64,000 nucleotides of DNA from Erwinia mallotivora (GTDB lineage: Bacteria; Pseudomonadota; Gammaproteobacteria; Enterobacterales; Enterobacteriaceae): the NCBI RefSeq assembly GCF_000590885.1, contig NZ_JFHN01000053.1, positions 248,001-312,000 of the forward strand. Reading direction: 5' to 3'. Both the position numbers and the translations under genes were made by a program. Below are positions 1-16,611 of the stretch, piece by piece (position 1 is the stretch's first letter; each line of letters begins with the position of its first letter). The notes beneath the pieces are model-generated. The model was not told the DNA's origin. It ran no database searches and worked only from the letters and a program-made list of their open reading frames with translations.

Positions 1-3000
1 AGTCCAGGCGATGACCCTGACTTTAAGCCGATCGTTTATCGTAGCCTTTACCCGATTGAAGTCACGGATGCCGAGGTGTCGCACATCTTCAACCTGACCT
101 TACAGCGCGACCCGCTGGTTTCACCCGAAAAGGAATCGGGCCTGGTGTGCGGCGTCAGCGGACAGCGTCTGCGTATAGCAGCAGCTGCCGCCGGGGACAA
201 TTTCCCGAAAGAACAGCAATTTAATATATTTAATAACAAGTACAAAACCGAAGACAGCACGCAGCCGATGGGGCTGGTCATCACCGATCCCTTATTTTCG
301 ATGCAGCAGGGCAACCGCAGCATCGATATCGTGATTCATCTCAAGGAGGTACGTTCAGGCATTGTTGCCCAGGAATTACTGGCGGTGGATGATGATGATA
401 AAACCAGCGCAGCCCTGACGCGCGTATTCACCCATTTACTCACTCTGCATGCCCATCTGCTGGAAGACTGGTCCGCGCGGATAAGCGCTGTCAGGCTGGC
501 AGAGCAGGTAAAAGCAGAGCAGCTCAGCAGGTTTCGGCATCTCAAACCGTCACAGCGTGTCTGGGGGGCCTGTAAATTATTTTTTCTGCAAATGCTCCAG
601 TTTATATGTTCAACCCCGGACGAAGGGATGCAATATGGCCTTGCCAGGACAGAGCTGCTGTTTCGGGTCATCGGTCAGATAGTCAGCCGACGCGCACTGT
701 ACACGGTACCGTGGTTAACCGAATCCGAGAGCGCAGAGGTCCTCAGCGGTTTAAAACCCATTTTTGCAGAAGATTCAACGGCTTACACTACGATAAAAGC
801 GCTGCTCTGCCACTCGGCCACGGCGACTTTTTATCAACTCTTTGAGGGTGTATTCCATATTGAAGCCTCAACCGAAAATGGTTGGGAGGTGCTTGATAAT
901 GTGGAAATTTATCCCTGCGCCCCCCACGAGTGTGAAACGGGATTCAGGGTGAAATGTCATGTGGATACCGGCTTTGCGCCCGTCATCTCCCGCCATGCGC
1001 ATCTGCTGCACAGTGCATCGCTGAGAATAACCCTGAAGCGACAAAGCAACTGCTTTCCCTACGCTATTTTCCGCGATTTTGAATTAGCAAAACTGGCGAT
1101 GTCGGCACAGGTCAGCGGCGTAACCCGGATGCAATTATTTAACCCTGAGGGGCAAATTGATTCCTCGCAGCCCTTCTTCTTATTTGGTTCCCAGCCTTAT
1201 CCCGATGCTTATGCGGTGATAGCTAACGAAGAAATTGCCCGGAAAAACCTTAACCAGTTGCTGCTGCACCTTGACTGGGGGAATCTGCCGCGAGGTTCAG
1301 ATGGCTTCAGCGAATACTATGCTGAATACCCTTATCCCTACACCAACGCCAGTTTCCAGATTCGTGCAGAAATGCTCAGTAACGGGCAGTGGGTTGAACC
1401 CGCCCCGACTACCTTACCGTTATTTACGCCAGCCAGCGGCGCACTTCACCATCACAGACATTTTCATTTTCCGCATATCAAAAACGGCTACACGCCGGTG
1501 ACCCACCCCTGGCCAAAGACGCCCTACAGTAACCAGTCTGGGTTACGTAATGGGTTATTTAAGCTGAAGTTAACCGGCCCGGAGCCGGCATTTGGCCACA
1601 AAAGCTACGCCCCGTTGCTGAGTGAGACACTCACTTACAACGTCAGCAAAAAGCATAAAAGAACGCTGCCCGCTCCGCCTTATACGCCGCTGGTCACCCG
1701 GATTGCCATCGACTATTCCGCGGAGTCGACCATTGATTTATTAAGCGTCGACGGTCACAGCCAGAGTGAAATTGTGCACCTGCACCCTTTTGGCGAAAAC
1801 GTCATTTATCCGCCAAAGCAGACTCACCAGCTCCACAGGCCGCGATTCTTTCCGAATTACGAAGAAGACAGCCACTGCTTTATCGGGATCACCGCGACCG
1901 AATTATCGGGATATTTAAATATTTTCTTCGTGTTTGACGGTAACTCCCGCCTGCTGACGCCCTTTCCGTCTACCGCTTATCGCTGGTATTACCTGGTGGA
2001 TAATGAATGGCAGACACTTCATCCACACCAGATTATCCATGACACTACCCTTAACTTTCTTACCACCGGTATTGTCACCTTAGACCTGCCCGATGACATC
2101 AACAGGGAACACACCGTGATTCCATCGGGGCTGTTCTGGATCCGTGTCAGCACCAACCGGGGGATCGACCGCTATCCCGACTGTCTGCATGTCGCCACGC
2201 ACGTTGTAAAGGTCACGGGAAAAGGCGCTCCCCTTGCCGATGACGGTATCACCCCGCTCTCATTTTCTGCATGGCGTAGCACACCACGAAAACCGAATCT
2301 GGCGGTGATAGCACAAATTAATGCGATGATAAAAATCCCCGAAACGGAGAGCGATCGGCACTTTCAGATGCGGGTGAGTGAACGCCTGCGTCACAAAGGC
2401 AAAGCCTTAACCCCGTGGGATTACGAGCATCTCATTCTGGAAAACTTCCCGGAGGTGGGTGCCGTACACTGTTTCCCTGCCCGCAGCTATTATGCTCTTA
2501 AGCAGCAGCCAGGCCGCGTACTGATCATCGTGACCCCGGTCAATACCCATTGCGATCACTCACTCTGTTCGCCAAAGCAGTTAGATTCTTCCTGTCTCCT
2601 CACCATTCGCCGTTACCTGTTGGCCGTGTCTCGCCCGCACGTCGAGATTGAAGTCCGTAATCCTGGCTACGAAAAAATCCAGATCAGATGCAAAGTCATC
2701 TTAAAAGACGGCGTCAGCCATGGCCCCGCCTTGCGAAGACTGGAATATGCTGTCAAATCACAGCTATGCCCCTGGGCAGCGGATACCCTGAACACCGGGC
2801 TGGGATTCTGCTTATCACTTGAGAAGCTCAGCGCCTTTATTCTCAGGCAAAAAGACGTGGTAAGCGTCAGTGCGCTCTCCGCACTGAAAATCAGCATGGA
2901 TGAAGATGCGGAATACACCCTTCAGGACAGTGCGGCAAACAGTGAACCTGTTCGGGCTGCCTTTCCGTGGTATTTACTGATCCCGGAAGAGCATCAGTAC

Positions 3001-3132
3001 ATTCAAATTTCAGCCGATAGCCTTACCCATAAACCCGTTACCGTCGGTATTGGCGAACTGGTTATCGGGGAACAATTTATTGTCGGCACATCAACTCCCT
3101 CTCTCCCCGAAGGCGAAAAAAATAATGGCTAA
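1..3132 (+). CDS. eCIS baseplate J-like protein (Afp11-like), 5' partial
   Basis: The reading frame is open from base 1, so the gene starts upstream of the window; the GTG at 76 is only an internal codon. About 1,043 residues are visible. The C-terminal third (bases 2340-2760) has the signature of eCIS/phage baseplate J proteins: a stretch like RLRHKGKALTPWDYEHLIL, then a valine-rich strand region (RVLIIVTPV) and a C-terminal ferredoxin-like part. The family forms the wedge around the spike that triggers sheath contraction. The middle part is beta-rich and Afp11-like. The gene overlaps the next by 8 bp (3125-3132), so the genes are translationally coupled. Family assignment is from remembered motifs, not a search; the coding call is certain. 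Confidence 0.85.
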   Translation, partial: SPGDDPDFKPIVYRSLYPIEVTDAEVSHIFNLTLQRDPLVSPEKESGLVCGVSGQRLRIAAAAAGDNFPKEQQFNIFNNKYKTEDSTQPMGLVITDPLFSMQQGNRSIDIVIHLKEVRSGIVAQELLAVDDDDKTSAALTRVFTHLLTLHAHLLEDWSARISAVRLAEQVKAEQLSRFRHLKPSQRVWGACKLFFLQMLQFICSTPDEGMQYGLARTELLFRVIGQIVSRRALYTVPWLTESESAEVLSGLKPIFAEDSTAYTTIKALLCHSATATFYQLFEGVFHIEASTENGWEVLDNVEIYPCAPHECETGFRVKCHVDTGFAPVISRHAHLLHSASLRITLKRQSNCFPYAIFRDFELAKLAMSAQVSGVTRMQLFNPEGQIDSSQPFFLFGSQPYPDAYAVIANEEIARKNLNQLLLHLDWGNLPRGSDGFSEYYAEYPYPYTNASFQIRAEMLSNGQWVEPAPTTLPLFTPASGALHHHRHFHFPHIKNGYTPVTHPWPKTPYSNQSGLRNGLFKLKLTGPEPAFGHKSYAPLLSETLTYNVSKKHKRTLPAPPYTPLVTRIAIDYSAESTIDLLSVDGHSQSEIVHLHPFGENVIYPPKQTHQLHRPRFFPNYEEDSHCFIGITATELSGYLNIFFVFDGNSRLLTPFPSTAYRWYYLVDNEWQTLHPHQIIHDTTLNFLTTGIVTLDLPDDINREHTVIPSGLFWIRVSTNRGIDRYPDCLHVATHVVKVTGKGAPLADDGITPLSFSAWRSTPRKPNLAVIAQINAMIKIPETESDRHFQMRVSERLRHKGKALTPWDYEHLILENFPEVGAVHCFPARSYYALKQQPGRVLIIVTPVNTHCDHSLCSPKQLDSSCLLTIRRYLLAVSRPHVEIEVRNPGYEKIQIRCKVILKDGVSHGPALRRLEYAVKSQLCPWAADTLNTGLGFCLSLEKLSAFILRQKDVVSVSALSALKISMDEDAEYTLQDSAANSEPVRAAFPWYLLIPEEHQYIQISADSLTHKPVTVGIGELVIGEQFIVGTSTPSLPEGEKNNG

Positions 3133-3970
3133 ACGTAACCGCAGCACGCTCAAGAACTATTTTCGTCATGGGACCATGCCGTCAGCCGAACATTTTTCAG
3201 ACCTGATTGATTCATGCGTTAATCACAGTGATGAAGGCTTTATTAAGCCAGCGGAAACGGGCCTTCAGCTCAGGGCATTGGATCAGCAGCATCTGCTGAG
3301 CTTTTACCAGCAAAACAGTCCCGATACTCCGCTGTGGCAGGTCGGATTTGCCCCTCAGGGTAGCAATTTACAGATTTTCGCAAACCCCAGTGCAGATATC
3401 ACCGATGAAAACCCGGCGGAGAGCGAAGCCACCCAGGCGGTCAGTCTCTCAATGACGCCCAAAGGACAGGTGGGGATCAATACCGCCACGCCGCAGCAGA
3501 CGCTTGATGTCAACGGCACGATCGCCTCGCAGGCCAGAATGGGCAGCGTATTAACAGATACGCCGATCCCCGCCGACGGCGAATGGCACGATATCACCCC
3601 CGATCTGGAGGGGTGCCATATGTTGGAAATCGTCGCGGGTATTGGCATCCGCTACAGCGGCCGTTATGCGCTTGTGCATGCCATCGCCATTAATACCTGC
3701 GCACCAAACAAGCGTTGGTGGCAGCGCGGAGATAAGAACCCCATTCATCTGACTCAGGCATTCTTTCACTCGTCGGCTGACAAAATCCAGCTGCGCTGGC
3801 GGCAACATAACCACCGAGGCACCGTCCGCCCTTACGCATTACAAATTCGCACCACTACGCCATTTGGCGAAGGCCAGACCATCCGCTACCACATTACGCA
3901 ACTGTGGAATGACCCCTTTATGCAGCAATGCCACTCCACGGCAACGGGGAATAAAGTCAATGATGTCTGA
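3125..3970 (+). CDS. eCIS-associated short fibre-like protein, 281 aa
   Basis: The start is the ATG at 3125 (MAKRNRSTLK), which overlaps the stop of the preceding gene; an in-frame ATG at 3050 would overlap it much more and is unlikely. The N-terminus (residues 8-40) has a pattern I associate with eCIS fibre/adhesin-type genes, a Tyr-Phe-x-x-Gly-x-x-Pro segment followed by FSDLIDSCVNHSDEG. Around residues 115-135 is a GINTATPQQTLDVNG segment, the turn motif common in trimeric tail-fibre and adhesin heads. The C-terminal 140 residues are beta-rich and unassigned. There is no signal peptide, as expected for a particle part. It lies between two baseplate genes, so a baseplate-attached fibre or adaptor is likely; receptor binding is inferred. 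Confidence 0.75.
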   Translation: MAKRNRSTLKNYFRHGTMPSAEHFSDLIDSCVNHSDEGFIKPAETGLQLRALDQQHLLSFYQQNSPDTPLWQVGFAPQGSNLQIFANPSADITDENPAESEATQAVSLSMTPKGQVGINTATPQQTLDVNGTIASQARMGSVLTDTPIPADGEWHDITPDLEGCHMLEIVAGIGIRYSGRYALVHAIAINTCAPNKRWWQRGDKNPIHLTQAFFHSSADKIQLRWRQHNHRGTVRPYALQIRTTTPFGEGQTIRYHITQLWNDPFMQQCHSTATGNKVNDV

Positions 3971-6341
3971 GGCTATTTCCAAACAGCGCCATAATGATAA
4001 TCCGAACAGCTTCGAACATCTTTATCAGCTTGGCCTGACATACATCCAGCAGATGAGTGGTCGACTCTGGACTGACTACAACACGCACGATCCGGGTATG
4101 ACGATCCTGGAGCAGGTGTGTTATGCCCTGACCGACCTTATCTACCGCTGTGAGTTTGAGGTGACCGATTATCTCTGTGATCCCTCAGGGAAGATTGATT
4201 ACCGGGCTCATGGCTTAGCGCTGCCGCAGGATATCCTGCCGGCATACCCGCAGCAGCCAGAAGAATATGAAACATGGTTATTAGCCCGGCTGCCTGAGCT
4301 GGATAAAGTGTGGTTACGCCTGGCTGAGCATGCCCCGCAGCTGGGTATTTACACCCTTAATGCGCAGCTCAATCATTTTTACGCGTTAAGCCAGCAGCGT
4401 TCAGTGTCAGGTCAGCATTCGGTTTACAGCCAGCAACATGCCGCGGTGGATCATATTCGCCAGGCGTTTCATCGGGTACGGGCAGTGGCAGAAGATTTAT
4501 CCACCATTGAATTAACCGGGCAACACCCGCTGACGCTCAACGCTGTCATTCACGTCAGTGATGATATCGAGGATGTCACCGGTTTTGCTGCCCGTATCTG
4601 CCACCGGATTGGCCTCTGGCTGGAAGCCAATGTGCAAATCACCCCTGCGACGGTGATTAAAGAATCACTGCTGGCTGAAGATGGGGTCCAGAATATCGAG
4701 CGGCTGGCGTTTATTCAGTACCGGGATAACGCCGGTTATGCTGAACCTGTGCCGCTTGATGATATTGCGCCGTTTTCATATCTGACCCTGCCGCAACCCT
4801 CTGCCCATTCAGGAATTGAGATTATTCAGTTTCAGCACCCGGTTGATATCGACTATGCCGATCTCGCCATTCAAATCGAGCAGATTCAATACCAGCAACG
4901 TTTTGCCCGGCTGAACGCGGCCACGCCTGTGGCGCTGCCCGTTGGTCACCACGTTGAGTTCAGCCACTATGAGTCCATTCAAACGCTGTTCCCGAGGAAC
5001 TATCATTTAGCGCCGGGGATGCCGAATGATTACCATGCGCAACAACAGGCGCAACGGCATCAGCTTCGCAGCTACTTACTGCTGTTTGATCAACTGATGG
5101 CTAATTTTTGTGATGACATTGACGGCCTGAATACCCTGTTCTCGCTGTCATTAACGCCTGAGACCACCTATCACGCGCATCTGTTACAGGATGAAGAGTT
5201 TTATAATATCGCCAGGCATTACCCGCCGGATGCCGCAACGCGTCTGGATCAGTTACGTGCCCGGCTTGATGATTATCCTGAACGGAAAAATCGCATCTTT
5301 GATTATTTGCTCGCCCTGTACAGCGAACGGTTTCCGGCAGGATTACATCGCCAGTTCAACCCCTATTTTCCGGGCCCGATATTAGAAAAACAGCTACTGA
5401 AATATAAACAGGCCTTTATGCTGAATATCGTCACTATGACCCGTGAGCGGGGCATGGGTGATAATTTGCTTCAGCCTGAACATCAGGGGGGATATCGTCA
5501 GCGCCTTTCGCTGCTGCTGGGACTCCTGCCACAGGCATCCTCACAGGGAAATTGTACCGAGGCTATTACCCGCTACTCACTGAAGCTGGTTGCGGACCCG
5601 CTCTACTTCCCCAGCGATGCAGGCAAAAAAGTGTTGTGGTTACTCAGCCCCGGCGCACAGACAAACCTGCTGCCTTTAGCTGATAACCGTTTAACGGAAT
5701 ACCCGAACGAAGAGGATATTCAACATCGTCTGTTAGCCACCTCGCTGTTCCACGAGCGAATGCTGCCGGACGTGCTGATGCGGTTCGGCATTGATAACAG
5801 CAGATACCGTCTGCTCCATTGCCCGGAGCATGGTTATTACCAGCTGTTTTTTAACGCCGATATTGCAGGTCCCCGGCAGTGGTTTTATATCGCCAGCCAC
5901 CCTGACAAACAGACACTCACCGGGCTTTGCCACCTGTTGCAACGTTGGCTGACCGGGCTGAACCAACGCAGCGAAGGGCTTTATGTCGTTGAACCGATTT
6001 TACTGCGTACCGGGGACGATAACGCATCGTTGAGCGACTATGCCAACCGGGTAATTGTTGTTTTGCCGGGCTACACCGCGCGCTTCAGCAACGTCAGATT
6101 TCGGGAGCGGGCGGAGCAATTAATCATCGAAAACAGCCCGGCGCATCTGCTGACGCAGTGCCTGTGGCTTGATTTCTCCGCGCTTGCCCAATTCGAAACG
6201 CTCTACAGCCAGTGGCGGCAGGCAAAATCCAGCGCGCTACAGCATAAAGAACAGCAGCCGGCGTGCGATGCCATTGCCAGGCAGCTGTATCTGTTTCTGC
6301 AACGGTCACGCAATGAAACAGATGAGGCGTTGAGTCTGTGA
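3960..6341 (+). CDS. eCIS baseplate wedge protein (Afp12-like)
   Basis: About 793 residues. Two adjacent ATGs (3960, 3963) are preceded by a GGGGA ribosome site; 3960 has the better spacing. The N-terminus carries the eCIS signature WTDYNTHDPGMTILEQVCYA followed by LTDLIYR. The centre has LLLFDQLMANF. The C-terminus has an EGLYVVEPILLR block followed by a VVLPGYTARF / FRERAEQLI block and a final PAHLL. This order is typical of the second large wedge protein that pairs with the J-like protein. It starts inside the previous gene and ends in a GTGA overlap with the tape-measure gene. No membrane segments or signal peptide are visible. The function is known for the family, not shown here. Confidence 0.82.
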   Translation: MMSEAISKQRHNDNPNSFEHLYQLGLTYIQQMSGRLWTDYNTHDPGMTILEQVCYALTDLIYRCEFEVTDYLCDPSGKIDYRAHGLALPQDILPAYPQQPEEYETWLLARLPELDKVWLRLAEHAPQLGIYTLNAQLNHFYALSQQRSVSGQHSVYSQQHAAVDHIRQAFHRVRAVAEDLSTIELTGQHPLTLNAVIHVSDDIEDVTGFAARICHRIGLWLEANVQITPATVIKESLLAEDGVQNIERLAFIQYRDNAGYAEPVPLDDIAPFSYLTLPQPSAHSGIEIIQFQHPVDIDYADLAIQIEQIQYQQRFARLNAATPVALPVGHHVEFSHYESIQTLFPRNYHLAPGMPNDYHAQQQAQRHQLRSYLLLFDQLMANFCDDIDGLNTLFSLSLTPETTYHAHLLQDEEFYNIARHYPPDAATRLDQLRARLDDYPERKNRIFDYLLALYSERFPAGLHRQFNPYFPGPILEKQLLKYKQAFMLNIVTMTRERGMGDNLLQPEHQGGYRQRLSLLLGLLPQASSQGNCTEAITRYSLKLVADPLYFPSDAGKKVLWLLSPGAQTNLLPLADNRLTEYPNEEDIQHRLLATSLFHERMLPDVLMRFGIDNSRYRLLHCPEHGYYQLFFNADIAGPRQWFYIASHPDKQTLTGLCHLLQRWLTGLNQRSEGLYVVEPILLRTGDDNASLSDYANRVIVVLPGYTARFSNVRFRERAEQLIIENSPAHLLTQCLWLDFSALAQFETLYSQWRQAKSSALQHKEQQPACDAIARQLYLFLQRSRNETDEALSL

Positions 6342-9300
6342 GCCAACTTCACAAAATCAATCACGCCAGCCTCGAATTTAATTTCAGCGGAGTTGCTGAT
6401 GCAGAAGCCTTTGAGCTACGCGCCGCACAGTGGGTTGTGCAGCAATTCATCCCGGTGATGGAAGCGGTATTTGACGAGGTCTGTCCTGAGCACCAGACCC
6501 TGGTTATCGACACGCTGACGCTCGATCTTGGTGTGCTGAGCGCAGGGGCGTTTTACCAACAGGCACCAGAAAGGCTCAAACAGATACTACAAACCACACT
6601 GCGCTCACAGCTCCAGATCGCCAGGCAGACACCTCAGAGCAGACCACCGGCTGAACCTCATCACATGCAGGTGCTGAGCCAGCAGCAACAGCGCTGGAAC
6701 CTGCTCTGGCAATTCCTTCGTACCGGTGCGCTTCCATGGTCTGTTGCAGGCAGGCAATTGCCGGAATCACTGGGGTTGCCGGATATGCTGACCGAGCACT
6801 CGGCCCGGCTGATTAACGCACTCAGTACCGCCAGTCGGCCTGAGCAGATAGTTCGACGGCTGGTTGAGCAATTTCCTGCCAGACACATTGCCGCGCTGTT
6901 TCCCTCGTTAGCGCCAGCCTGGCAATGGCAGATGATGTCACTGTTATTAACGCACCCGGTCAGCCGCCAGGGAGAATTAACCGATCGGCTGGCACTGGCG
7001 TGGTTCAACCGCTTCAGCCAGCTGTTAGCACAACACAACCTGACTCCGCTGCGTGCCGACTGGGAAAAGCTGATTCAGCAGTATGCACCGCAGCTGATTA
7101 ACGCGCTCCGGCAACGGCACAGCGACAGCCAGCTGCCCTGGTGTCTGGTGCAGGATTTAACGGAAGCTGAGCGTTTGCTGCTGTTAAGCGTATTAACGCC
7201 GCAGGAATATCCATTTCTGAGCGCTATTCTGCAAATGCCAGACTGGTGGCAGTTTAAAAGTCGGGCCGATTTAACCTCGCGCGATGTTTACGCCACGCAG
7301 GCATCAGGCGCGGAGAAATCCGTCACGCTGTTAGCCACCTCGCAAATCCACCAGCATTTATGGCTGTTCACCCTCCAGTACCTGCTCATCGATCGTGGCA
7401 GTGCCTTTAACCGCCAGAGCTACATGGCAGGCCTGGTGACCCGGATGGCAAATGCGCAAAACCAGAAGGCAGAGACGCTGCTGGCATCGTTAATCTCAAC
7501 GCTGAACAGCATCACCCTCCATAGCGCACTGCGGGAACAGTTATTGCATTTACTCCATGCCATTGCGCCCGTCATTGCTTCACCGACAAGGTTAAACGCG
7601 TCCGATAAACAGGAAATCGCTGAAATCAGCCTGGCCGCTGGCGCACCCGCTGACGAGGCACATCTGCCGATCGGTACGCTGCCATTTCTGCATATCAATG
7701 AGCTGGTTATGGCGCTCTGTGCCGGTAAAGAAAAACAGCTCCTGCTGCACTGGCCACCACCTTCGCAGCCGTTTGCCGCCTTATTACGCTGGTGTGGTCA
7801 ACTGGAGTATGTGCGTCGCCATTGGTGTGAAACCTATTCTGATAAAACCTTATCAGCGCTGGTCGGGATACTGGAACCGAGTGCCACGCCTTTAATACGG
7901 ATCCTCAGGGTGCAACATCGCCTGTTTACACCCCAGCACACCACGGCGATCGGCCGCACAACAACGATGAATTTATGGCGATTCACCTTTGCCTTTCTGA
8001 TTGTGGAAAGCAGTGGCGCATTTAATCCCAAAAGCTATCTGCGTTATTTAATCCGCCAGATGGCACGCTGGCATCATGTCTCTTATCACCATCAGCTGGC
8101 GTCACTGAGCAACAGCGTTATCGATGCCGGTGATTTTTTACTGCACGGCGTCCCCCTGAGCCGTCTGCTTGAGGAGATCGCGCCCTCCGATTCCGCGGAA
8201 AAAACCGTTAAGGATGACGCACCATCACCTTCTTTTTTCCGGCTGTCACTCTCACCCTCGCTGATAAGCGGGCTCTCTCTGGCGCAGCTCGCCGACATCG
8301 AGCAGATCATTCTCACGCTGCAAAGTGCCCGGCTGATTCAGTGGAATAACCACATTAAGCAATGGCAGCGCGACCACGGGAAACGACTGCCGCTGCTGAT
8401 TGTCAGTCTGGGAAGCTCGCAGCCCACGATTAAGCGCTGGGTAGCCCATTTTGATGACCCTGCTCTGTTCACATTAACCAGCCTCGTCACTCCACAGGCC
8501 ACCGAGAGCGTGCGCACGGTGATTACCGGGCGTCAGACCATCGCCCTCGCCCTGAGTCATGGGGCAAATCCACCCGACGCCAGCAACACCAGAACTGCCC
8601 TGTGGGAGCTGACGCTGCACTACCTGATAAGCCGCCGGGGAAGTGAATTTAATCACTACCAATATTTGCTGAATATCACTGAACAGCTTTCTGCCCGCTA
8701 TCAGATTAACGTTGCGCTATTAATTCATGAGTGGCTGCGTCTGAGCGATAGCGGCTTTTTATGGCGTCAGCAGTTAATCGACCTTGTTGAACATCATCAA
8801 CGGCCGCCGGTCACGGCACCTCAGTTGCTCAGCAGTGTGCAGGCCGACGATCAGACAGTGGCTGTAAGCCAGCAGCAACAAACGCTTTTACAGCACTATG
8901 CCGCGATCAACGCGTCGGCAACCGCCATGCAGCTTCAGACATGGAGCCTCCCCCAGCTGACGCGCCTGATACGCATCATGCAGCCGCAATGCAGTGAGCG
9001 CCTCACCGCGTTGTTGCCTTTACTGCTTGCGATAGTCAATCAATTTCAATTGGCCCCTCACTGGTTTTACCCACTGCTGCTCAGCCATGACTGTCCTGCC
9101 ACGCCAGAGCAATGGCTTCAACGGTTGCTACAACAGATAAACAGGCAAAATGCATCACCAGACCGAACGCTCCACCATCAGTTGCAACAGCTGGTGCTCA
9201 GCAGTAATGACATTCATCACCCGCTGGCGGAACGCCGGCGATGGACAGAGAACCTTCTGCCAGAAGAAGCGCTGCCTGAAAAATTACAGCTATGGCTGGA

Positions 9301-10441
9301 AGGTAAAGCCCCGGCTCCGACACAAAGCATCCTGGCAGGCTTATCGCCGCGCGGGCCGCAGCTCCCGCTACTGCAATGGCTACAGCGCACGCTGGCAAAC
9401 CCACGCCATATGCAATGCTGGCTTGAAGGGCTGTCGGCTGAAACACACCAGGCGATTTTGTTCCCGAGACTGACCAGCACCACCCTCGCATTGCTGGCAT
9501 TGCGCCAGGCATTTTGTCAGCTCTTTGCCTCGCCAAAACAGGGAGAGGTTTTTTTCTGGCAAACGCTGTATCGCCAGCACTGGCTCAGAGGGATTGCCAT
9601 GACCGGCGACAGGTTCATGCAGGAAGTACTTATTGAGCTGACACAATTTTGGCGAACTCACGCCGTGCAGGACAACGCATCAGACGACAGGTCGGTTGCT
9701 GCGCTGACTGAACGGCTGGTGCCGTTGATATCCTCCACCTCACAGCGAAAAACGTTAGTACAGATAGCCCGTCAGGGGAAACAACACCCGCCGGGAAAAG
9801 CCCCCCGGGCGGCACACCTTAATCATCAGCAACCTGAAATCAGACAGCTTGCAGAGGCCATTGATATGACAGACAAAGGCATGAAAAAAAGCACGGAGAA
9901 TACACGGGAAGAATCGCAGGATAATGCAGAAGTCAGCGCGGATCCCATCGTTATTCACAATGCGGGGCTGGTTCTCGCTTCAGTCTATATTCCGGTGTTA
10001 TTTCAGAAATTAGCCCTGACCGACGGGCGCAATTTCGTTGACGGTCAGGCACAGTTGCAGGCACTGTTCTGCCTGCAATGGATGACGGATTACACCAACA
10101 GCGCGCCTGAATATCAGCTGCTGCTGAATAAGGTGCTCTGCGGGATTGCTCCATCTACCGCTATACCCCAGCAGGTTACCTTGCCGGAAGGGGCAGAAAC
10201 GCTGATAGAGGGTTTACTCACCGCCATTATTACCCACTGGCGGGCCATAGGAAAAACCAGCATCAGCACGCTGCAAGCCTCTTTTTTTCAACGTGAAGGC
10301 ATGCTCACCTCCACCCCTGAACACTGGCAGCTTAAAATCTTCCCCGCCCCCTTTGACATGCTGATCGACCAGTTGCCGTGGAGTTTTCAGACCATCAAAT
10401 ACCCATGGATGGATCTCCCCCTTTTTGTTTCATGGCGCTAA
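6338..10441 (+). CDS. contractile injection system tape-measure protein
   Basis: 1,367 residues from a GTG at 6338 that overlaps the previous TGA. The N-terminal 70 residues (an acidic helix with a LVIDTLTLDLG strand) and the last 130 residues (GLVLASVYIPVLFQKL, a THWRAIGKTS helix, ending PWMDLPLFVSW) match the conserved ends of CIS tape-measure proteins, which set tube length during assembly. Between them are three similar modules about 205 residues apart, each with LW-x-FT/LT-x-x-YL followed by an S-x-FN-x-x-x-Y motif, anchored at residues 341, 546 and 755. The interior is helical and rich in Gln, Leu and His. If length tracks the ruler function, this predicts a long particle. Confidence 0.88.
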   Translation: MSQLHKINHASLEFNFSGVADAEAFELRAAQWVVQQFIPVMEAVFDEVCPEHQTLVIDTLTLDLGVLSAGAFYQQAPERLKQILQTTLRSQLQIARQTPQSRPPAEPHHMQVLSQQQQRWNLLWQFLRTGALPWSVAGRQLPESLGLPDMLTEHSARLINALSTASRPEQIVRRLVEQFPARHIAALFPSLAPAWQWQMMSLLLTHPVSRQGELTDRLALAWFNRFSQLLAQHNLTPLRADWEKLIQQYAPQLINALRQRHSDSQLPWCLVQDLTEAERLLLLSVLTPQEYPFLSAILQMPDWWQFKSRADLTSRDVYATQASGAEKSVTLLATSQIHQHLWLFTLQYLLIDRGSAFNRQSYMAGLVTRMANAQNQKAETLLASLISTLNSITLHSALREQLLHLLHAIAPVIASPTRLNASDKQEIAEISLAAGAPADEAHLPIGTLPFLHINELVMALCAGKEKQLLLHWPPPSQPFAALLRWCGQLEYVRRHWCETYSDKTLSALVGILEPSATPLIRILRVQHRLFTPQHTTAIGRTTTMNLWRFTFAFLIVESSGAFNPKSYLRYLIRQMARWHHVSYHHQLASLSNSVIDAGDFLLHGVPLSRLLEEIAPSDSAEKTVKDDAPSPSFFRLSLSPSLISGLSLAQLADIEQIILTLQSARLIQWNNHIKQWQRDHGKRLPLLIVSLGSSQPTIKRWVAHFDDPALFTLTSLVTPQATESVRTVITGRQTIALALSHGANPPDASNTRTALWELTLHYLISRRGSEFNHYQYLLNITEQLSARYQINVALLIHEWLRLSDSGFLWRQQLIDLVEHHQRPPVTAPQLLSSVQADDQTVAVSQQQQTLLQHYAAINASATAMQLQTWSLPQLTRLIRIMQPQCSERLTALLPLLLAIVNQFQLAPHWFYPLLLSHDCPATPEQWLQRLLQQINRQNASPDRTLHHQLQQLVLSSNDIHHPLAERRRWTENLLPEEALPEKLQLWLEGKAPAPTQSILAGLSPRGPQLPLLQWLQRTLANPRHMQCWLEGLSAETHQAILFPRLTSTTLALLALRQAFCQLFASPKQGEVFFWQTLYRQHWLRGIAMTGDRFMQEVLIELTQFWRTHAVQDNASDDRSVAALTERLVPLISSTSQRKTLVQIARQGKQHPPGKAPRAAHLNHQQPEIRQLAEAIDMTDKGMKKSTENTREESQDNAEVSADPIVIHNAGLVLASVYIPVLFQKLALTDGRNFVDGQAQLQALFCLQWMTDYTNSAPEYQLLLNKVLCGIAPSTAIPQQVTLPEGAETLIEGLLTAIITHWRAIGKTSISTLQASFFQREGMLTSTPEHWQLKIFPAPFDMLIDQLPWSFQTIKYPWMDLPLFVSWR
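7340..8760 (+). repeat. three ~205-residue protein repeats inside the tape-measure gene
   Basis: The translated modules starting near W342, W547 and W756 share a Leu-Trp, a Phe/Leu-Thr, a Tyr/Phe-Leu, then a short loop with Gly-x-Phe-Asn or Ser-x-Phe-Asn, a Tyr, and an amphipathic helix. Spacing between equivalent tryptophans is 205 and 209 residues. The DNA copies have diverged too far to be an assembly artefact. Bounds are approximate. Confidence 0.6.
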
Positions 10442-10452
10442 GGACAAAAATA

Positions 10453-13167
10453 ATGATGAATCCTGGTTTCAGTCTGCTGTTACTCAGTCGTCAGCCGACA
10501 CGCTGGTTCGCCGGACGTGTGGCCTGCTGGCTGTTGTGTGGTGGTTTGCTTGGCGCCGTGCCCGCGCATGCTGACACCGCGCAGAACGAGCTGGTCGACA
10601 GCGTCCAGCCGGTTAAAACGTGCAGCAAACAGCTAACGTGGAGCGATAAACGCAATCTGGGGAGATCGATACAAACGCAGCTTGCCGCGTTGTATCAGAA
10701 CAACAGTGATTTTCAGGCCCAGCTGCAAAGAGGGCAACGGCTTAACGATGGCGTCGTCGGTCCCACTACCCGTTACTGGCTGGATTACTTCTGCGGTGAA
10801 TTTGCCTTTGCCACGCCAGAGACGTCCAATGATCCGCACCAGGTTTTTGTTGAATCATTAATGATTGCGCTAAATCGCGCCGCCGAGCGCAATGCGCTGT
10901 ATCCAACGTGGCGTACGGCAATTACCCCGCCCGAACTGCTTGGTTTAACCTCCGCGCAGATCGAGCAAAAACTCAGCCCCAATGGCGCAGGCTCTGCTAA
11001 AAGTGACGATGGGGCAAAACCGGCGCAGCCGCCTGTAGCGCAGAGGCCCGACAGCGATACCGCCCCCTATTATTACCAACTGACAAAAAAAGACTTCGCC
11101 AGCCTGACGTTGCGTCAGACCGTGCTGGCAACCTTTGCAAAACTGGAAAAGCAGCAGTTCGATCAGCGCAGTCAGCTTTATAATCAGCTCAGTGATTTAT
11201 TTTCTCAGCTGAATATTCCGATTGCCCCACCGCTGAATATCGATAATTTGATTGATTCTTACACCATCGAGAGTTCGCAACCCAGCACGAGCACAAGTAC
11301 CAGCACCAGCACCAGCACCAGCACCAGCACCAGCACCAGCACCAGCACTAATACCAGTGCCAGTAACAATACCAGTGCCGGCAACAATACCAGTGCCGGT
11401 AAAAGTGCCAGCAGTAATGCCAGCACCAGTGCCAGTCCCGGCGCAAGTCAGAATACTCCCGCTGGCGGCAGTGATAGTGAGAAAGATAAGCAAAATCCTG
11501 ATGACAAAAACGGCGATATCCCTGAACCATCAACCCAGGTCATTGAAACCAACACGCAGAGCGATACACAAACATCGGCACAACAGGTCGTGTGGCAATT
11601 AAATCCGCAGGCGTTAAATGACTCCATCCGGGAATTGGGGATCACCGCCCTGTCTGAAGAGGTATTAAAAACGCTGGCACCGTTGCAGGATGAAGTCTTT
11701 CCCAGCCTCTATTTATTACAGATCGCGATTAATGAGTCGGGTATCCCGCCAGAGAGTCTTCAGGACAAGGGCGTCTTTACCTTAGCCAGGAAAAGTGGTC
11801 CCAGCCCCGCTCGCGCTGTCCCGGTCAACTGGCAGGCGCCGCCGGACTGTGGATGTCAGGACAGTGCTAAATCTATTTTTACCATGGGCACTTTTTATGG
11901 TTTCTATCCTTACTGGCAACACCTCGAAACGGGACAATCTATTGATTTCAGTCGCTTAGACCGCATTGGCTATCTTGGTGCAGTAATGAAACCGGAAGGG
12001 AGCGGCAATACGCTGGTTCTGCCACAAAACTGGCAGGCCGCCCCCGGATTCAGCCAGTTTATTCAGATTACCCACCGTTACAGGACCAAACTTGATCTGG
12101 TCGTCACCACGCCCATGGATCTTTCCCGGGAGCAGCTGGTTGGGCTGTTTACCGATGATATGGTTAAGCAGCTGGTGAAATCCGTGACCACGCCAATGGA
12201 TAAGTACCTGATTAATAATCTGAAGCCGTGGGTGAGCTTCGGGCTGGAAAGCGTTCCGTCGATGGCAGACGGCATTACGCTGGATATCGACCTGTCCATC
12301 CTTGACACGCCGCAAAGCCAGCAGGCTTTTTTCACATTTCTGGACAAGCTTAAGATTGCGCTCCGTCAGAGCTATCACCCGCATGCCAGCAGCAGTGAAT
12401 CAGATGGCCCTGCTACCGACGGTGATAAATATTATTTAAGCGTAATTGTTCCTGTTAAAGATGTGGTAGAGACAAAAAATGGTTTCTACAGCTTTACCAA
12501 TTTCGATGCATTATCACAACGCACCAACCTGCTGATCGTCCGGCCGGGTTCACCAGCAACGCTTGATAAAGCCAGTGATGAACTCGATCAAATAAAAGCA
12601 CTACAGCAATGGTTAAGCAATCAGCCAAATCAACTGGAAGTCCAGCAGGTCTACAAGCGACTGGTCCCGGTGCTGATCAGTGAGGATAACCGTAATCAGC
12701 CCTCTGCCCTGACCCAACTGGTCAATCTTTCCAGCTGGACCTTTTTGGGGGCTGGCTACTGGCCGTTACCATTAAGTGACGCCAACGAGAAGCTGATAGA
12801 TAAAACGTTCTTCCCGGAAACACAGCAATATCCGCAGCCACTTAATCAGCTGACCAACGGCGTCGCCAGCCTGTTGAACTGGGTTTGTGTGCATCGCTGG
12901 GAGCTGAGAACCGGATTATTTGTATCATTCCTCTTTATTCTGCTGGTCCTGGTCATCTGTATCTGGTCGTTCCCACTCAGAAAACATTTGAGCCGCTTTC
13001 CTTTTGTGGCGCTGACGTCGCTGTCCATCAGCGGACTGATGCTGGTGTTTGTCGCCGACCCTGCGTTTCAGGATTATCAGGGACCTATTCTGCTGATCTT
13101 TATGGTGGTGATTGGCTGGATATTATTTGCGGTGCGAATGGTGAGGAAGGAGGGGGATAAGCCTTAA
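10453..13167 (+). CDS. eCIS-linked secreted/membrane protein: PG-binding-like region, Ser-Thr linker, degenerate GH18-like domain, C-terminal TM helices
   Basis: 904 residues from the ATG at 10453 (AAGGA eight bases upstream). An N-terminal signal sequence (basic, then WLLCGGLLGA, ending PAHA at about residue 40) is followed by a peptidoglycan-binding-like segment (residues 65-115, ending DGVVGPTTRYWL). Next come a low-complexity Thr-Ser/Asn linker (about 277-345) and a region resembling a GH18 barrel: GFYPYW at about 482-487, then DFSRLDRIGYLG, a LDLVVTTP strand and GITLDIDLS near 607-615. The usual DxDxE ends in Ser615 rather than Glu, so it is probably not an active chitinase. Three hydrophobic helices near the C-terminus (about 815-900) would anchor it in the inner membrane. 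It sits 11 bp after the tape-measure stop. A role in wall docking or particle release is inference. Confidence 0.75.
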   Translation: MMNPGFSLLLLSRQPTRWFAGRVACWLLCGGLLGAVPAHADTAQNELVDSVQPVKTCSKQLTWSDKRNLGRSIQTQLAALYQNNSDFQAQLQRGQRLNDGVVGPTTRYWLDYFCGEFAFATPETSNDPHQVFVESLMIALNRAAERNALYPTWRTAITPPELLGLTSAQIEQKLSPNGAGSAKSDDGAKPAQPPVAQRPDSDTAPYYYQLTKKDFASLTLRQTVLATFAKLEKQQFDQRSQLYNQLSDLFSQLNIPIAPPLNIDNLIDSYTIESSQPSTSTSTSTSTSTSTSTSTSTSTNTSASNNTSAGNNTSAGKSASSNASTSASPGASQNTPAGGSDSEKDKQNPDDKNGDIPEPSTQVIETNTQSDTQTSAQQVVWQLNPQALNDSIRELGITALSEEVLKTLAPLQDEVFPSLYLLQIAINESGIPPESLQDKGVFTLARKSGPSPARAVPVNWQAPPDCGCQDSAKSIFTMGTFYGFYPYWQHLETGQSIDFSRLDRIGYLGAVMKPEGSGNTLVLPQNWQAAPGFSQFIQITHRYRTKLDLVVTTPMDLSREQLVGLFTDDMVKQLVKSVTTPMDKYLINNLKPWVSFGLESVPSMADGITLDIDLSILDTPQSQQAFFTFLDKLKIALRQSYHPHASSSESDGPATDGDKYYLSVIVPVKDVVETKNGFYSFTNFDALSQRTNLLIVRPGSPATLDKASDELDQIKALQQWLSNQPNQLEVQQVYKRLVPVLISEDNRNQPSALTQLVNLSSWTFLGAGYWPLPLSDANEKLIDKTFFPETQQYPQPLNQLTNGVASLLNWVCVHRWELRTGLFVSFLFILLVLVICIWSFPLRKHLSRFPFVALTSLSISGLMLVFVADPAFQDYQGPILLIFMVVIGWILFAVRMVRKEGDKP
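11299..11346 (+). repeat. (ACCAGC)8 in-frame microsatellite
   Basis: Eight exact tandem copies of a six-base unit encode eight Thr-Ser pairs in the linker between the two halves of the preceding protein; similar degenerate units flank it on both sides. Since the unit is two codons, gain or loss of copies changes linker length but not frame. Confidence 0.95.
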
Positions 13168-13182
13168 TCGTTTTTTCAGACT

Positions 13183-13210
13183 GGGGATAACTGCTGAAGC
13201 CGTTATCCCC
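13183..13210 (+). terminator. hairpin after the eCIS structural operon
   Basis: A perfect 9-bp stem (GGGGATAAC at 13183-13191 with GTTATCCCC at 13202-13210) lies 15 bp after the last plus-strand stop. It is followed only by a weak T-rich stretch, so termination is likely but not canonical. Confidence 0.55.
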
Positions 13211-13252
13211 CGGTTTGTGTTGCCTTAAATATTCATGGGTATGAAATGAAGT

Positions 13253-13274
13253 AAAAAGCCTGATTCAATCAGGC
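13253..13274 (-). terminator. intrinsic terminator of the minus-strand cargo operon
   Basis: The stem GCCTGAT / ATCAGGC (13258-13264, 13268-13274) has a 3-base loop and, read on the minus strand, is followed by five T (AAAAA at 13253-13257 on plus). It lies 36 bp after the stop of the last minus-strand ORF. Confidence 0.75.
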
Positions 13275-13310
13275 CGATAAAAAATTACGCAGAATTTAAA
13301 AAGTTAGCCA

Positions 13311-13865
13311 TTAATTCCATGGGATAACAGCACGCTTTTCATAACCTTCTATCCATTTTCTAAAATTCATTATGTCAGATATAACCACGTCAGCATTATA
13401 CGTTAACTGTCCTCTTTTTTCAGATTCTGACTTCGAAAGTATATCTTGCAATATGACCAGAACAGTGTCCAGATAACTATTCCTTGCTGCTTCTATTTCA
13501 TCAGGAGACAAATATCCAGGTTCTAAAAATGTATGGCTTATCGCATCTAAGCCCCCCCTGATATTTTCTGCTTTTGCAGTTTCCAGACCACCAATCAACC
13601 CTGATTTTCGGCTCTCAGATTTCCTGTCTAAATAAAGACCTCTGAGCGTTTTTTTTATACTTCCAATATGCATTGCATTGTTTTTGATGGTAAAGCTTAG
13701 TAATTTTAATCGCTCTTTTGACTTTCCAGCTAACACCAGAGCATCCATCAACGTTTTATATATTTTATCTGGTCTTGAGAGTCTTTGTTCCAGAGCTGAT
13801 TTGGTCATGGACCAATGACTTTCATTGTTAATCACTGAAAACCGACCGGCATCGGGGGATTCCAT
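13311..13865 (-). CDS. helical ORF overlapping the end of the DUF4157 cargo gene; possible detached C-terminus
   Basis: About 184 residues if the ATG at 13865 is used; the frame is open back to 13880 (TTG), and another ATG lies at 13808. None has a good ribosome site. The frame overlaps the 3' end of the cargo gene by up to 49 bp and lies one base back from it. The product is lysine-rich and mostly helical, with SALEQRLSRPDKIYKTLMDA near the start; this resembles the helical segment that often follows an AbiEii-like nucleotidyltransferase core. I therefore favour a split effector. A separate immunity or chaperone gene is the alternative. The DNA is AT-rich compared with its neighbours, as is common for polymorphic toxin tips. 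Confidence 0.6.
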   Translation of the reverse strand: MESPDAGRFSVINNESHWSMTKSALEQRLSRPDKIYKTLMDALVLAGKSKERLKLLSFTIKNNAMHIGSIKKTLRGLYLDRKSESRKSGLIGGLETAKAENIRGGLDAISHTFLEPGYLSPDEIEAARNSYLDTVLVILQDILSKSESEKRGQLTYNADVVISDIMNFRKWIEGYEKRAVIPWN

Positions 13866-15157
13866 TTCTTCTGTTCCCAATATTTTTCAGCCTTCCCATC
13901 AATATAGTGAAAGGAGTACTCCAAATCGCGGCTTTTAAAAATAATTGTTGACCCCATTGTAACAGTAGGGTTATCGACAGATAAAGTCTTTGAAATCGCC
14001 CCCAGGCTGGTAATTACGAGACCTATTTGCTCCATCACACCAGAGATTCCCGAATCATCTTTTGGTGCATACTTAGGGTCCGCTCCTTTTTTTAGCTGAA
14101 AGTCCATATCTATATCTCTCATATTATCTGAAGGTCTTCCCAACCTTCCGTCGTCAGGATGTTTAAGTGTCAGAGCGGACCCACCACCTAAAATAAAATC
14201 AAAGTTCTTTAATAGTTTATTTTTAGCAAAGGCACTGGTAAGCAACGCAACAAGATTGGGAATTTGAATTAGTCGACTTCGATGTCTGGGACTGACTGGC
14301 TCGCCACCTTTGGATTCATGCTCAGCTTCATGAGCTTTTATCTTCTCCAAATCCAGGCGAAGAGAAGGCTTCTTCGATTTAGCAAACTCTTCCCCCACAG
14401 AATTCAGTGCTGTACTGAATCGAGAAGGAATAACGCCAGCTTGATGAGCCATTGCTGCAATCCATCCTGCTTTCTTTTTATCCGTAGTGGTTGAAAGCAA
14501 ATAATCAAATAGCTGACCGTTATCCATTTCATCCTGGTTTAAATCATCAAATTCCTCCTGTCTATCTTTGAGATTGACGCCTGAGGCCTTAACTCTTTCG
14601 AACATATCTTCCATATCTTTTTTAGTCCCTTTCACCATTCCATTCATGAAGTAACCCTGTAAAACATTAAGTTTAGAAACTGAAGGTGCTTTCAGGCTTT
14701 CATTTCCTCGGCTGGAGTCAATTTCCTTTAACTGAACCGCCCTTCCGCCCAGCACATCTGCCTCATGCTCCAGCGCCGGACTGTCATTCACCGCCATTCC
14801 TGCCACCGAGGTTGTCGCCGAAACCCGTCCCTGCGCCTGCTGCACCACATGCCCCAGCTCATGCGGCAGGTGTTTTTCCTGCCCGGAAGCCAGATGGATA
14901 TCACTGCCCTGCGCGTAAGCGTGCGCCTGCACGGTGGCAGGTTTTGCAGAGTTATAATGCACCCGCACGTGATCCAGGCTCATGCCGCTGATATTCTCCA
15001 TACCGCTTTTCAGGTTATCGGGCAGCCCGGTTTTATTTGGCTGTCTTTGAACCGTCTCCGTGCGGTTGTCCTCCAGCGTTGCCGATGCATGACTGACTTT
15101 GCGCTGCGAAACCGCCTTGCGGCTTGATTGATGTCGTGCCGTCTTTTTTGAATACAT
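13832..15157 (-). CDS. DUF4157 eCIS cargo protein with nucleotidyltransferase-like C-terminal half
   Basis: 441 residues from the ATG at 15157 (GAGGA nine bases upstream; a GTG at 15160 is possible). Residues 1-40 are basic and disordered. Residues 45-140 are a textbook DUF4157 (PVC-metallopeptidase) domain: LPDNLKSGMENISG, VHYNS, AYAQG, then HLPHELGHVVQQAQGRV with the HExxH zinc motif (H99, E100, H103) and LEHEADVLG. Such domains mark toxins loaded into eCIS particles. After a lysine-rich helical middle, residues 320-353 read ILGGGSAL...RPSDNMRDIDMDF, matching the GG[S/T]-x(n)-DhD signature of MNT/AbiEii nucleotidyltransferases, followed by a DLEYSFHYID strand that could supply the third carboxylate. 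It lies downstream of the AAA+ gene. The NTase reading is from motifs; its target is unknown. Confidence 0.8.
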   Translation of the reverse strand: MYSKKTARHQSSRKAVSQRKVSHASATLEDNRTETVQRQPNKTGLPDNLKSGMENISGMSLDHVRVHYNSAKPATVQAHAYAQGSDIHLASGQEKHLPHELGHVVQQAQGRVSATTSVAGMAVNDSPALEHEADVLGGRAVQLKEIDSSRGNESLKAPSVSKLNVLQGYFMNGMVKGTKKDMEDMFERVKASGVNLKDRQEEFDDLNQDEMDNGQLFDYLLSTTTDKKKAGWIAAMAHQAGVIPSRFSTALNSVGEEFAKSKKPSLRLDLEKIKAHEAEHESKGGEPVSPRHRSRLIQIPNLVALLTSAFAKNKLLKNFDFILGGGSALTLKHPDDGRLGRPSDNMRDIDMDFQLKKGADPKYAPKDDSGISGVMEQIGLVITSLGAISKTLSVDNPTVTMGSTIIFKSRDLEYSFHYIDGKAEKYWEQKKWNPPMPVGFQ

Positions 15158-15237
15158 CACGAATCGTCCTCTTTCTTAATTCTGCTAAATCACCTGGTGC
15201 GTTCCGGTTATCTGATCTTCGGGCACGGACGCCGCAT

Positions 15238-16611
15238 TCACTCAAAGAATATTTTGTTATCTTTCCTGAATTCCTGACGGATGCTGGCAATGATGTCGTC
15301 CTGCGTAACCGTGCGTTCGCCGCGCTGAACGGCGATTAAGGCACACTGGCGCAGCACGTTAATGATTAGCCCGCCGGCAACTTCATAGCGGTCGGCGAGG
15401 GCCGCTAAATTGACATCTTCTGCGAGTTCACATGTACCGTTAAAAGCGTTTTGCCAGAGTGTCAGGCGCTCTTTCGGCCCCGGAATAGTAAACTGCACCA
15501 TGTTCTGAAAGCGCCGGGTAAAAGCTTCATCCATATTGTTTTTCAGGTTGGTGGCAATGATCACCGTGCCGGGGAAATCTTCTATCTTTTGCAGTAAATA
15601 ACCCGTCAGCTGGTTGGCATGTCTGTCGTTGGACGAACTGCCCTCCGAGCGTTTGCCAAACAGCGCATCCCCTTCATCAAAAAACAGGATCCACTCTTTG
15701 TAACTGGCGGCGTCAAATACACGGGACAAATTTTTCTCGGTTTCACCAATATATTTAGAAACCACCATGGATAAATCGACGCGATAGACATCCCGCCCGG
15801 TAGCCTTCCCCAGCAGCGCGGCGGTCAGCGTTTTACCTGTCCCTGGCGGGCCGAAGAACACCGCCCGATAGCCCGGCTTCACCTTTTCTGCCAGTTGCCA
15901 CTCATTCATCAGCGTCTGACCATGTCTGAGCCACGCATGCAGCTCTTCAACTTGTGCCATGACGTCTTTATCCAGCACCAGATCGCCCCATTCCAGTGGA
16001 GATTCCAGCAGATGGGCCGGGAAGCTGGCGCTTAATTCCGGACGAAGCCGCTCACCGGTAGTGAAATAGTGCAGCCACTCATCGTTTAACCGATAGATAC
16101 CGGCCCATTTTGGCACGCCATCATCAACTGACAGCAACTGAGTAACCTGTTCAGCCATCAGCCGATGTTTGTTTGCAAGGATGCCGTGCGCGTGGAGACG
16201 CCAGTCAGGGTCATTAGCGCTGATGAGAAAGTTGAGCGTCTGCCCGGTTGGGATAAAACCACTGAAGGCTTTATCGCTGACGCCTCCAAATTCAGTGAAA
16301 GGACGATCGATAAGGCTGTTAAGTCCAAAGAAAATATCAAGCGCATCAGGTTTCACACCGGGTGCCATAGCAAGAGCCAGCGCCAGGCGTTCAAAAACAG
16401 ACAGTTGCCAGTCAATATTTAAATCGGCATAAGGCGTGCCTTTAACCAGTTCCGGCGGCGCAATAGCTGACCAGTGCCGTTCATGCCCCTCTTGTTTGAG
16501 ATAGCTACAAATAACCTGATTAATGACCTGCGACAGCCACCCCATTTCGCGATAAAGCACAAGAACGTTATCTGCCTGTTGATGATTTTCGACATTTGCT
16601 TGTGGGGCCAT
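15238..16611 (-). CDS. eCIS AAA+ ATPase (Afp15-like)
   Basis: 457 residues from the ATG at 16611 (AAGGA upstream). The N-terminal 200 residues are the winged-helix-like region seen in Afp15/PVC15 ATPases. The AAA+ module follows: Walker A GPPGTGKT at 254-261, Walker B ILFFDE at 308-313, sensor ATN near 353-355, arginine finger in TRRF near 365-368. This ATPase is found in nearly all eCIS loci and is thought to help assembly or cargo loading. It is on the strand opposite the structural genes and upstream of the cargo gene, so it is the first gene of a short divergently oriented cargo operon. Confidence 0.9.
   Translation of the reverse strand: MAPQANVENHQQADNVLVLYREMGWLSQVINQVICSYLKQEGHERHWSAIAPPELVKGTPYADLNIDWQLSVFERLALALAMAPGVKPDALDIFFGLNSLIDRPFTEFGGVSDKAFSGFIPTGQTLNFLISANDPDWRLHAHGILANKHRLMAEQVTQLLSVDDGVPKWAGIYRLNDEWLHYFTTGERLRPELSASFPAHLLESPLEWGDLVLDKDVMAQVEELHAWLRHGQTLMNEWQLAEKVKPGYRAVFFGPPGTGKTLTAALLGKATGRDVYRVDLSMVVSKYIGETEKNLSRVFDAASYKEWILFFDEGDALFGKRSEGSSSNDRHANQLTGYLLQKIEDFPGTVIIATNLKNNMDEAFTRRFQNMVQFTIPGPKERLTLWQNAFNGTCELAEDVNLAALADRYEVAGGLIINVLRQCALIAVQRGERTVTQDDIIASIRQEFRKDNKIFFE

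Follow-up and report, generated by a model that had tools for sequence, protein, structure and literature searches.

In a 64,000-nucleotide stretch of the Erwinia mallotivora genome (contig NZ_JFHN01000053.1, positions 248,001 to 312,000; hereafter the window), a reverse-strand gene adjoining an extracellular contractile injection system (eCIS) cluster encodes an N-terminal DUF4157 leader, a middle region and a C-terminal tip with a predicted nucleotidyltransferase (NTase) fold. The product of this gene is likely to be an eCIS effector whose tip would attach a nucleotide to a target inside the recipient, RNA or tRNA being the leading candidate, while the copy in this genome is split between two open reading frames (ORF A and ORF B; Table 1). 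An eCIS-delivered effector had already been proposed in a first-pass annotation of this DNA, and the cargo assignment stood, with a DUF4157 leader beside eCIS genes, but the reading frame proved to be broken. That annotation made no mention of the split, although the check it proposed, on C-terminal residues joined to the downstream ORF, implied it.

The Pfam family PF13699 (eCIS_core, DUF4157) matched the leader of ORF A with an E value of 5.3e-13 (49.4 bits against a cut-off of 22), which was its single match across the whole 4.64 Mb genome, and together with the HELGH motif this bears out the N-terminal domain noted in the first-pass annotation. With an N-terminal PF13699 domain containing HExxH, and with eCIS core genes beside it, ORF A has the sequence and neighborhood features of eCIS-associated toxin (EAT) cargo. 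Both of the C-terminal motifs that had been pointed out, GGGSAL and RDIDMDF, were located as well and were unchanged even in relatives as little as 34% identical to the relative P0003; the residues then called D348 and D350 are the two aspartates of RDID, numbered from the ATG.

The tip is predicted from structure models to adopt a DNA polymerase beta-type NTase fold, the solved structures most like these models in the VIA ranking being the AbiEii-like tRNA NTase toxins MenT3/TglT and MenT1. Enzymes of the NTase superfamily carry an hG[GS] signature followed by Dx[DE] on the next strand, and this pattern is present in the tip, where G324, G325, D347, D349 and D351 (P0003 numbers) are invariant among the relatives. 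E416 on strand 415-422 is nearly invariant and is a candidate third carboxylate, while the loop directly before the candidate aspartates was modeled with low confidence. Foldseek alone gave no significant match for the tip models, a sequence-profile search of the PDB returned no hit up to E 10, and neither the cargo nor its relatives matched a Pfam family other than PF13699 above its cut-off. Sub-cutoff matches to PF21650 (DnaG_cat_HB; P0006, residues 574-618, E 0.0073), PF24235 (E 0.11-0.13) and PF21040 (P0009, E 0.23) were considered to be chance. When 7 of the 13 relatives were compared with PADLOC, PHROGs and NCBIfam, the best E values were 0.029 (AbiEi, P0013), 0.11 and 0.0027, respectively, the last from a kinase model over the leader and far under its cut-off.

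By analogy with other eCIS, the DUF4157 leader and the adjoining AAA+ ATPase would mark the protein for loading into the eCIS tube; in the tube of the Photorhabdus virulence cassette (PVC), the AAA ATPase Pvc15 helps to load effectors (PMC11495950), and the combination of leader and AAA+ neighbor suggests the same here. Once inside the recipient, the tip would add a nucleotide from a nucleoside triphosphate to its target, a metal ion being held by the DxD motif and the third carboxylate. Judged by the closest folds, RNA and especially tRNA 3' ends, on which MenT3 acts (PMC10435456), are the leading candidate target, while a protein or a small molecule may also be considered. That the tip modifies one of the latter rather than tRNA, by AMPylation, UMPylation or an ANT-like transfer, appears rather unlikely. 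ANT(2'') (PF10706) shares the NTase core with the tip and left a sequence hint in P0010 (E 0.025, under the Pfam cut-off), but it is a stand-alone resistance enzyme with shorter listed chains (174-185 residues), and it aligned with the tip models over 159-169 residues as against 204-225 for MenT3. In one structure comparison the ANT rows also stopped by model residue 505 whereas the MenT3 rows reached 597-601, although in the other comparison both extended to about residue 399. Synthesis of a signalling nucleotide inside the recipient, as by a cGAS/DncV-like nucleotidyltransferase (CD-NTase) or an alarmone synthetase, is improbable. DncV, a cGAS-like receptor and CdnD formed the first Foldseek rows for the P0003 model, and DUF4157-fused alarmone synthetases do exist (seven sequences; PMC12691689). 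However, these CD-NTase rows had TM-scores of 0.13-0.28 with E values from 0.0099 to 0.40, and VIA placed MenT3 higher; RelA/SpoT was absent from the Pfam scan listings of the cargo and its relatives, and the PADLOC scan of the 7 relatives found no CD-NTase.

Several comparisons place the two frames in a single gene. ORF A and ORF B matched complementary parts of a tip profile from 13 relatives (E 1.2e-61 and 1.7e-60, respectively), P0003 matched this genome in two places with its residues 1-438 and 425-616, and relatives of ORF A in the protein collection run on past its end, the extra stretch being ORF B. Judged by sequence, ORF A and ORF B are thus one gene in two frames, and the break falls between the predicted metal-binding core in ORF A and a conserved basic/acidic helix with the C-terminal helices in ORF B. 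The 62 tip columns that do not vary among 12 relatives are all preserved in the window pieces (37 in ORF A, 25 in ORF B, none changed; P0121 was left out of this alignment and included in three others), and the split is therefore either young or an assembly error. With its tip spread over two frames, this copy probably has no function or lost its activity recently, provided that the break is not such an error. The chances are about even that, in this genome, the eCIS retains the loading leader while the tip decays and both ORFs are functionless, which would be compatible with any of the functions considered for intact copies, and such copies are present in other organisms. Besides the break between the core and the C-terminal helices, decay is favored by the other Erwinia copy, since the nearest relative, the Erwinia mallotivora protein P0002, is open across the break position but stops at 548 amino acids and likewise lacks the end (full-length relatives have at least 617), and by the absence of any match to P0003 in the 36 other genomes of the genus. 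The intact invariant residues and the otherwise open frames, in contrast, leave little time for decay, and the break may be an assembly error. It is very improbable that the two products assemble into an active enzyme or that ribosomes shift frame, as the overlap of the ORFs and the retention of all invariant residues might suggest, because the tip lies in a single frame in all 10 full-length relatives.

At least 13 relatives with the tip were found besides the window protein in searches with ORF A, with the P0004 tip and with the tip alignment, and all 13 carry PF13699. From the ORF A search the best 120 of 4671 matches were listed, and the tip profile found the tip in 14 of 121 protein records (that of the window plus the 13 relatives); the search that scored the P0004 tip alone found 14 sequences. 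The tip ends early in P0002, P0008 and P0015 (62-77% of the P0004 tip query covered), compared with 95-100% coverage in the other nine non-query relatives. No stand-alone relative of the tip was found, as the tip-alignment search gave only DUF4157 fusions among 7997 scored candidates of limited length. The named source organisms were Erwinia mallotivora, Flavobacterium sp. 9AF and an uncultured Winogradskyella. The tip occurred once among 397 genomes sampled from the family of the Winogradskyella genome and once among 398 sampled from the phylum of the window, in each case the source genome itself, and in a scan of genome contigs the tip profile matched only the Winogradskyella locus (L004) among the 78 loci listed. 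The tip family is rare and without a name. At L004 the gene sits with an AAA+ gene and two further PF13699 proteins. One of these two DUF4157 proteins, at 8402-9733 of the locus, had a sub-cutoff match to a GNAT acetyltransferase (PF13508, E 7.8e-5) and might bear another transferase tip.

P0003 was matched in 14 of 392 sampled genomes of the bacterial family, this one included, and in the other 13 only within residues 1-148, which form the leader; two matches in viral contigs likewise concerned the leader, and eight plasmid records matched the leader alone. GC content marks the seam, with 56.9% in the leader, 42.0% in the middle region and 41.6% and 38.1% in the two tip parts, compared with 53.0% for the window, and protein identity to the E. 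mallotivora relative was 142/144 over the leader and 94/134, 112/144 and 104/122 over three later blocks. In Mangrovibacter and Cedecea (L005-L007), the slot beside the AAA+ gene (86-89% identical) holds a leader-only ORF of 148-149 amino acids followed by one or two genes, which did not match the tip profile; the leaders there have 55.5-59.5% GC and the genes after them 33.6-37.8%. These low-GC genes (L005 10579-12355, L006 10492-11703, L007 10475-11464) start with an E/K/N/QKK-rich stretch followed by DNR, and by eye the start of the L007 gene resembles the N-terminus of P0006; such a start may be a loading signal common to several groups. Possible, and short of probable, is a wider family of injected NTases for tRNA or other RNA, in which contractile injection systems of Enterobacterales and Bacteroidota would deliver a MenT-like enzyme that has no antitoxin partner and whose cassette has been swapped onto a conserved loading leader.

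Table 1. Features of the cargo gene and its surroundings (window coordinates).
Feature	Coordinates	Strand	Remarks
ORF A	13832..15160	-	442 aa, ATG at 15157; DUF4157 leader, helical middle and first part of predicted NTase tip (GG, DxD, third-carboxylate strand)
ORF B	13311..13880	-	189 aa, other frame, overlaps ORF A; rest of predicted NTase tip (conserved RLxRPDKIxKTLxDA and C-terminal helices)
Leader, residues 1-147	14720..15160	-
PF13699 eCIS_core (DUF4157), residues 46-111	14828..15025	-
HELGH (HExxH) motif	14849..14863	-
Middle region, residues 148-289	14294..14719	-	mostly helical in model of relative P0003
GGGSAL	14171..14188	-	hGG signature after strand 1 of predicted NTase fold
RDIDMDF	14099..14119	-	candidate catalytic DxD, start of strand 2
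DLEYSFH	13907..13927	-	strand with candidate third carboxylate
RLSRPDKIYKTLMDA	13740..13784	-	conserved basic/acidic helix past the core, in ORF B
Terminator-like hairpin with T tail	13257..13275	-	just 3' of ORF B; consensus scan alone, 5 such sites in scanned stretch against 3.9 expected
Baseplate J-like protein	76..3132	+	ORF as listed corresponds to residues 306-1323 of 9rce_A; probable start before the window, L002:19146 onwards
Baseplate protein	3864..6341	+	relative of SalCis12 and Algo12
Tape measure protein (PF19268)	6338..10441	+
929-aa eCIS cluster protein	10378..13167	+	relative of PDB 9r9a chain B; transmembrane-like stretches (by reading of sequence)
AAA+ ATPase adjoining cargo gene	15238..16611	-	PF00004, E 1e-25; homologues in Cedecea and Mangrovibacter

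The eCIS cluster extends from position 11175 of the neighboring locus L002 to position 13167 of the window and includes genes for a Pvc16-type cap protein, a sheath, two gp19 tubes, a CIS tube protein, a spike and gp25, as well as a 99-aa PAAR-like ORF recognized by reading of the sequence (L002:18384-18683); a tail-fibre gene was not recognized there. It resembles the eCIS with the solved baseplate 9rce (SalCis12), to which the two baseplate proteins matched at 1936 and 1304 bits, and the 929-aa protein matched 9r9a_B, labelled 'uncharacterized protein'; this comparison covered the baseplate proteins and the 929-aa protein, and a literature search found no publication on the solved SalCIS system. 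The tape measure protein was matched in 2 of 37 genomes of the genus, and the AAA+ gene had no DNA match in E. coli genomes. On the far side of the AAA+ gene lies what we take, from its ORF sequence, to be mutS. The 929-aa protein also contains a Ser/Thr repeat stretch, again by reading, and has relatives at the Mangrovibacter (L006), Cedecea (L007) and Marinomonas (L008) loci. By analogy with CisA of Streptomyces (PMC12237407), it may serve the eCIS as a membrane partner. A 306-aa ORF at 3050-3970 within the cluster overlaps both of its neighbors, had no Pfam match at E 0.001 and no significant match to a solved structure, and may be partly spurious. No antitoxin gene was seen beside the cargo gene, as the gap at 13168-13310 overlaps no ORF of at least 20 amino acids and the gap at 15161-15237 comprises only 77 bases, which fits the report that adjacent immunity genes are missing from a notable share of PVC-type systems (PMC3482391).

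While eCIS cargo as such is known, an NTase-type tip on such cargo, present here as a split gene, is undescribed in the papers that we searched (main texts of open-access papers), which is consistent with the statement of the first-pass annotation that no member with this architecture had been described. Among DUF4157 proteins predicted to be eCIS toxins, 983 of 1130 were reported to be without a further annotated domain (PMC11297309), and one such dark eCIS tip now has a testable predicted fold and active site. If the tip does modify tRNA, a mechanism of toxin-antitoxin systems and phage defence would have moved into an injected weapon, and the missing antitoxin would bear on the type of target, eukaryotic cells versus distant bacteria.

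The earlier assignment of the tip to MNT/AbiEii nucleotidyltransferases was supported as far as the predicted fold is concerned, with MenT3/TglT and MenT1 as the best solved matches, but membership in the AbiEii/MenT group was not upheld. None of 14 members matched PF08843 (AbiEii, DUF1814) at E<=10, and none of 10 relatives did so at E<=1. An hhalign comparison of the tip with 14 AbiEii sequences (from the 16 loci L100-L115, of which L113 and L114 failed the motif filter) reached a probability of 1.2% and a score of 23.3 over 37 columns, values reached by none of 150 column shuffles; this alignment pairs the tip's GGG with the GGT of AbiEii and ends ahead of the DxD motif, and the sequence likeness is thus only a faint trace. 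This genome also has an ordinary AbiEii gene on another contig (C65:54488-55357, locus L103; PF08843, E 3.9e-38).

In MenT1, the D41xD43 motif binds Mg2+, the nucleotide is in contact with R40 and K137, and toxicity depends on D41, K137 and D152 (PMC11375011, PMC10435456). The tip resembles MenT3/TglT and MenT1 in its predicted fold, in the GG motif and in a DxD motif with arginine just before the first aspartate, R346-D347-I-D349 resembling R40-D41-x-D43 of MenT1. Its invariant K468, K471 and D475 could be counterparts of the motif III lysine (K137) and motif IV aspartate (D152), although the spacing differs. The MenT motif I spacing is likewise different, since MenT1 has a threonine (T39) two residues before D41 whereas the conserved S342 of the tip lies five before D347. 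The fusion to an eCIS leader, with no antitoxin gene seen, also sets the tip protein apart from these toxins. With the DUF4157 EATs it shares the N-terminal DUF4157 domain, a C-terminal enzymatic tip and the eCIS neighborhood (PMC8213781, PMC11297309); no NTase tip was seen in these two large surveys, and words starting with 'nucleotidyl' or 'NTase' occur 0 times in their main texts. The nearest described relatives in kind are the DUF4157-fused alarmone synthetases, in which an eCIS leader is likewise joined to an enzyme from the broader set of NTase-like proteins, given that RelA/SpoT is related to the pol-beta fold (PMC3482391), but which are of the RelA/SpoT type, whereas the tip described here gave no RelA/SpoT match.
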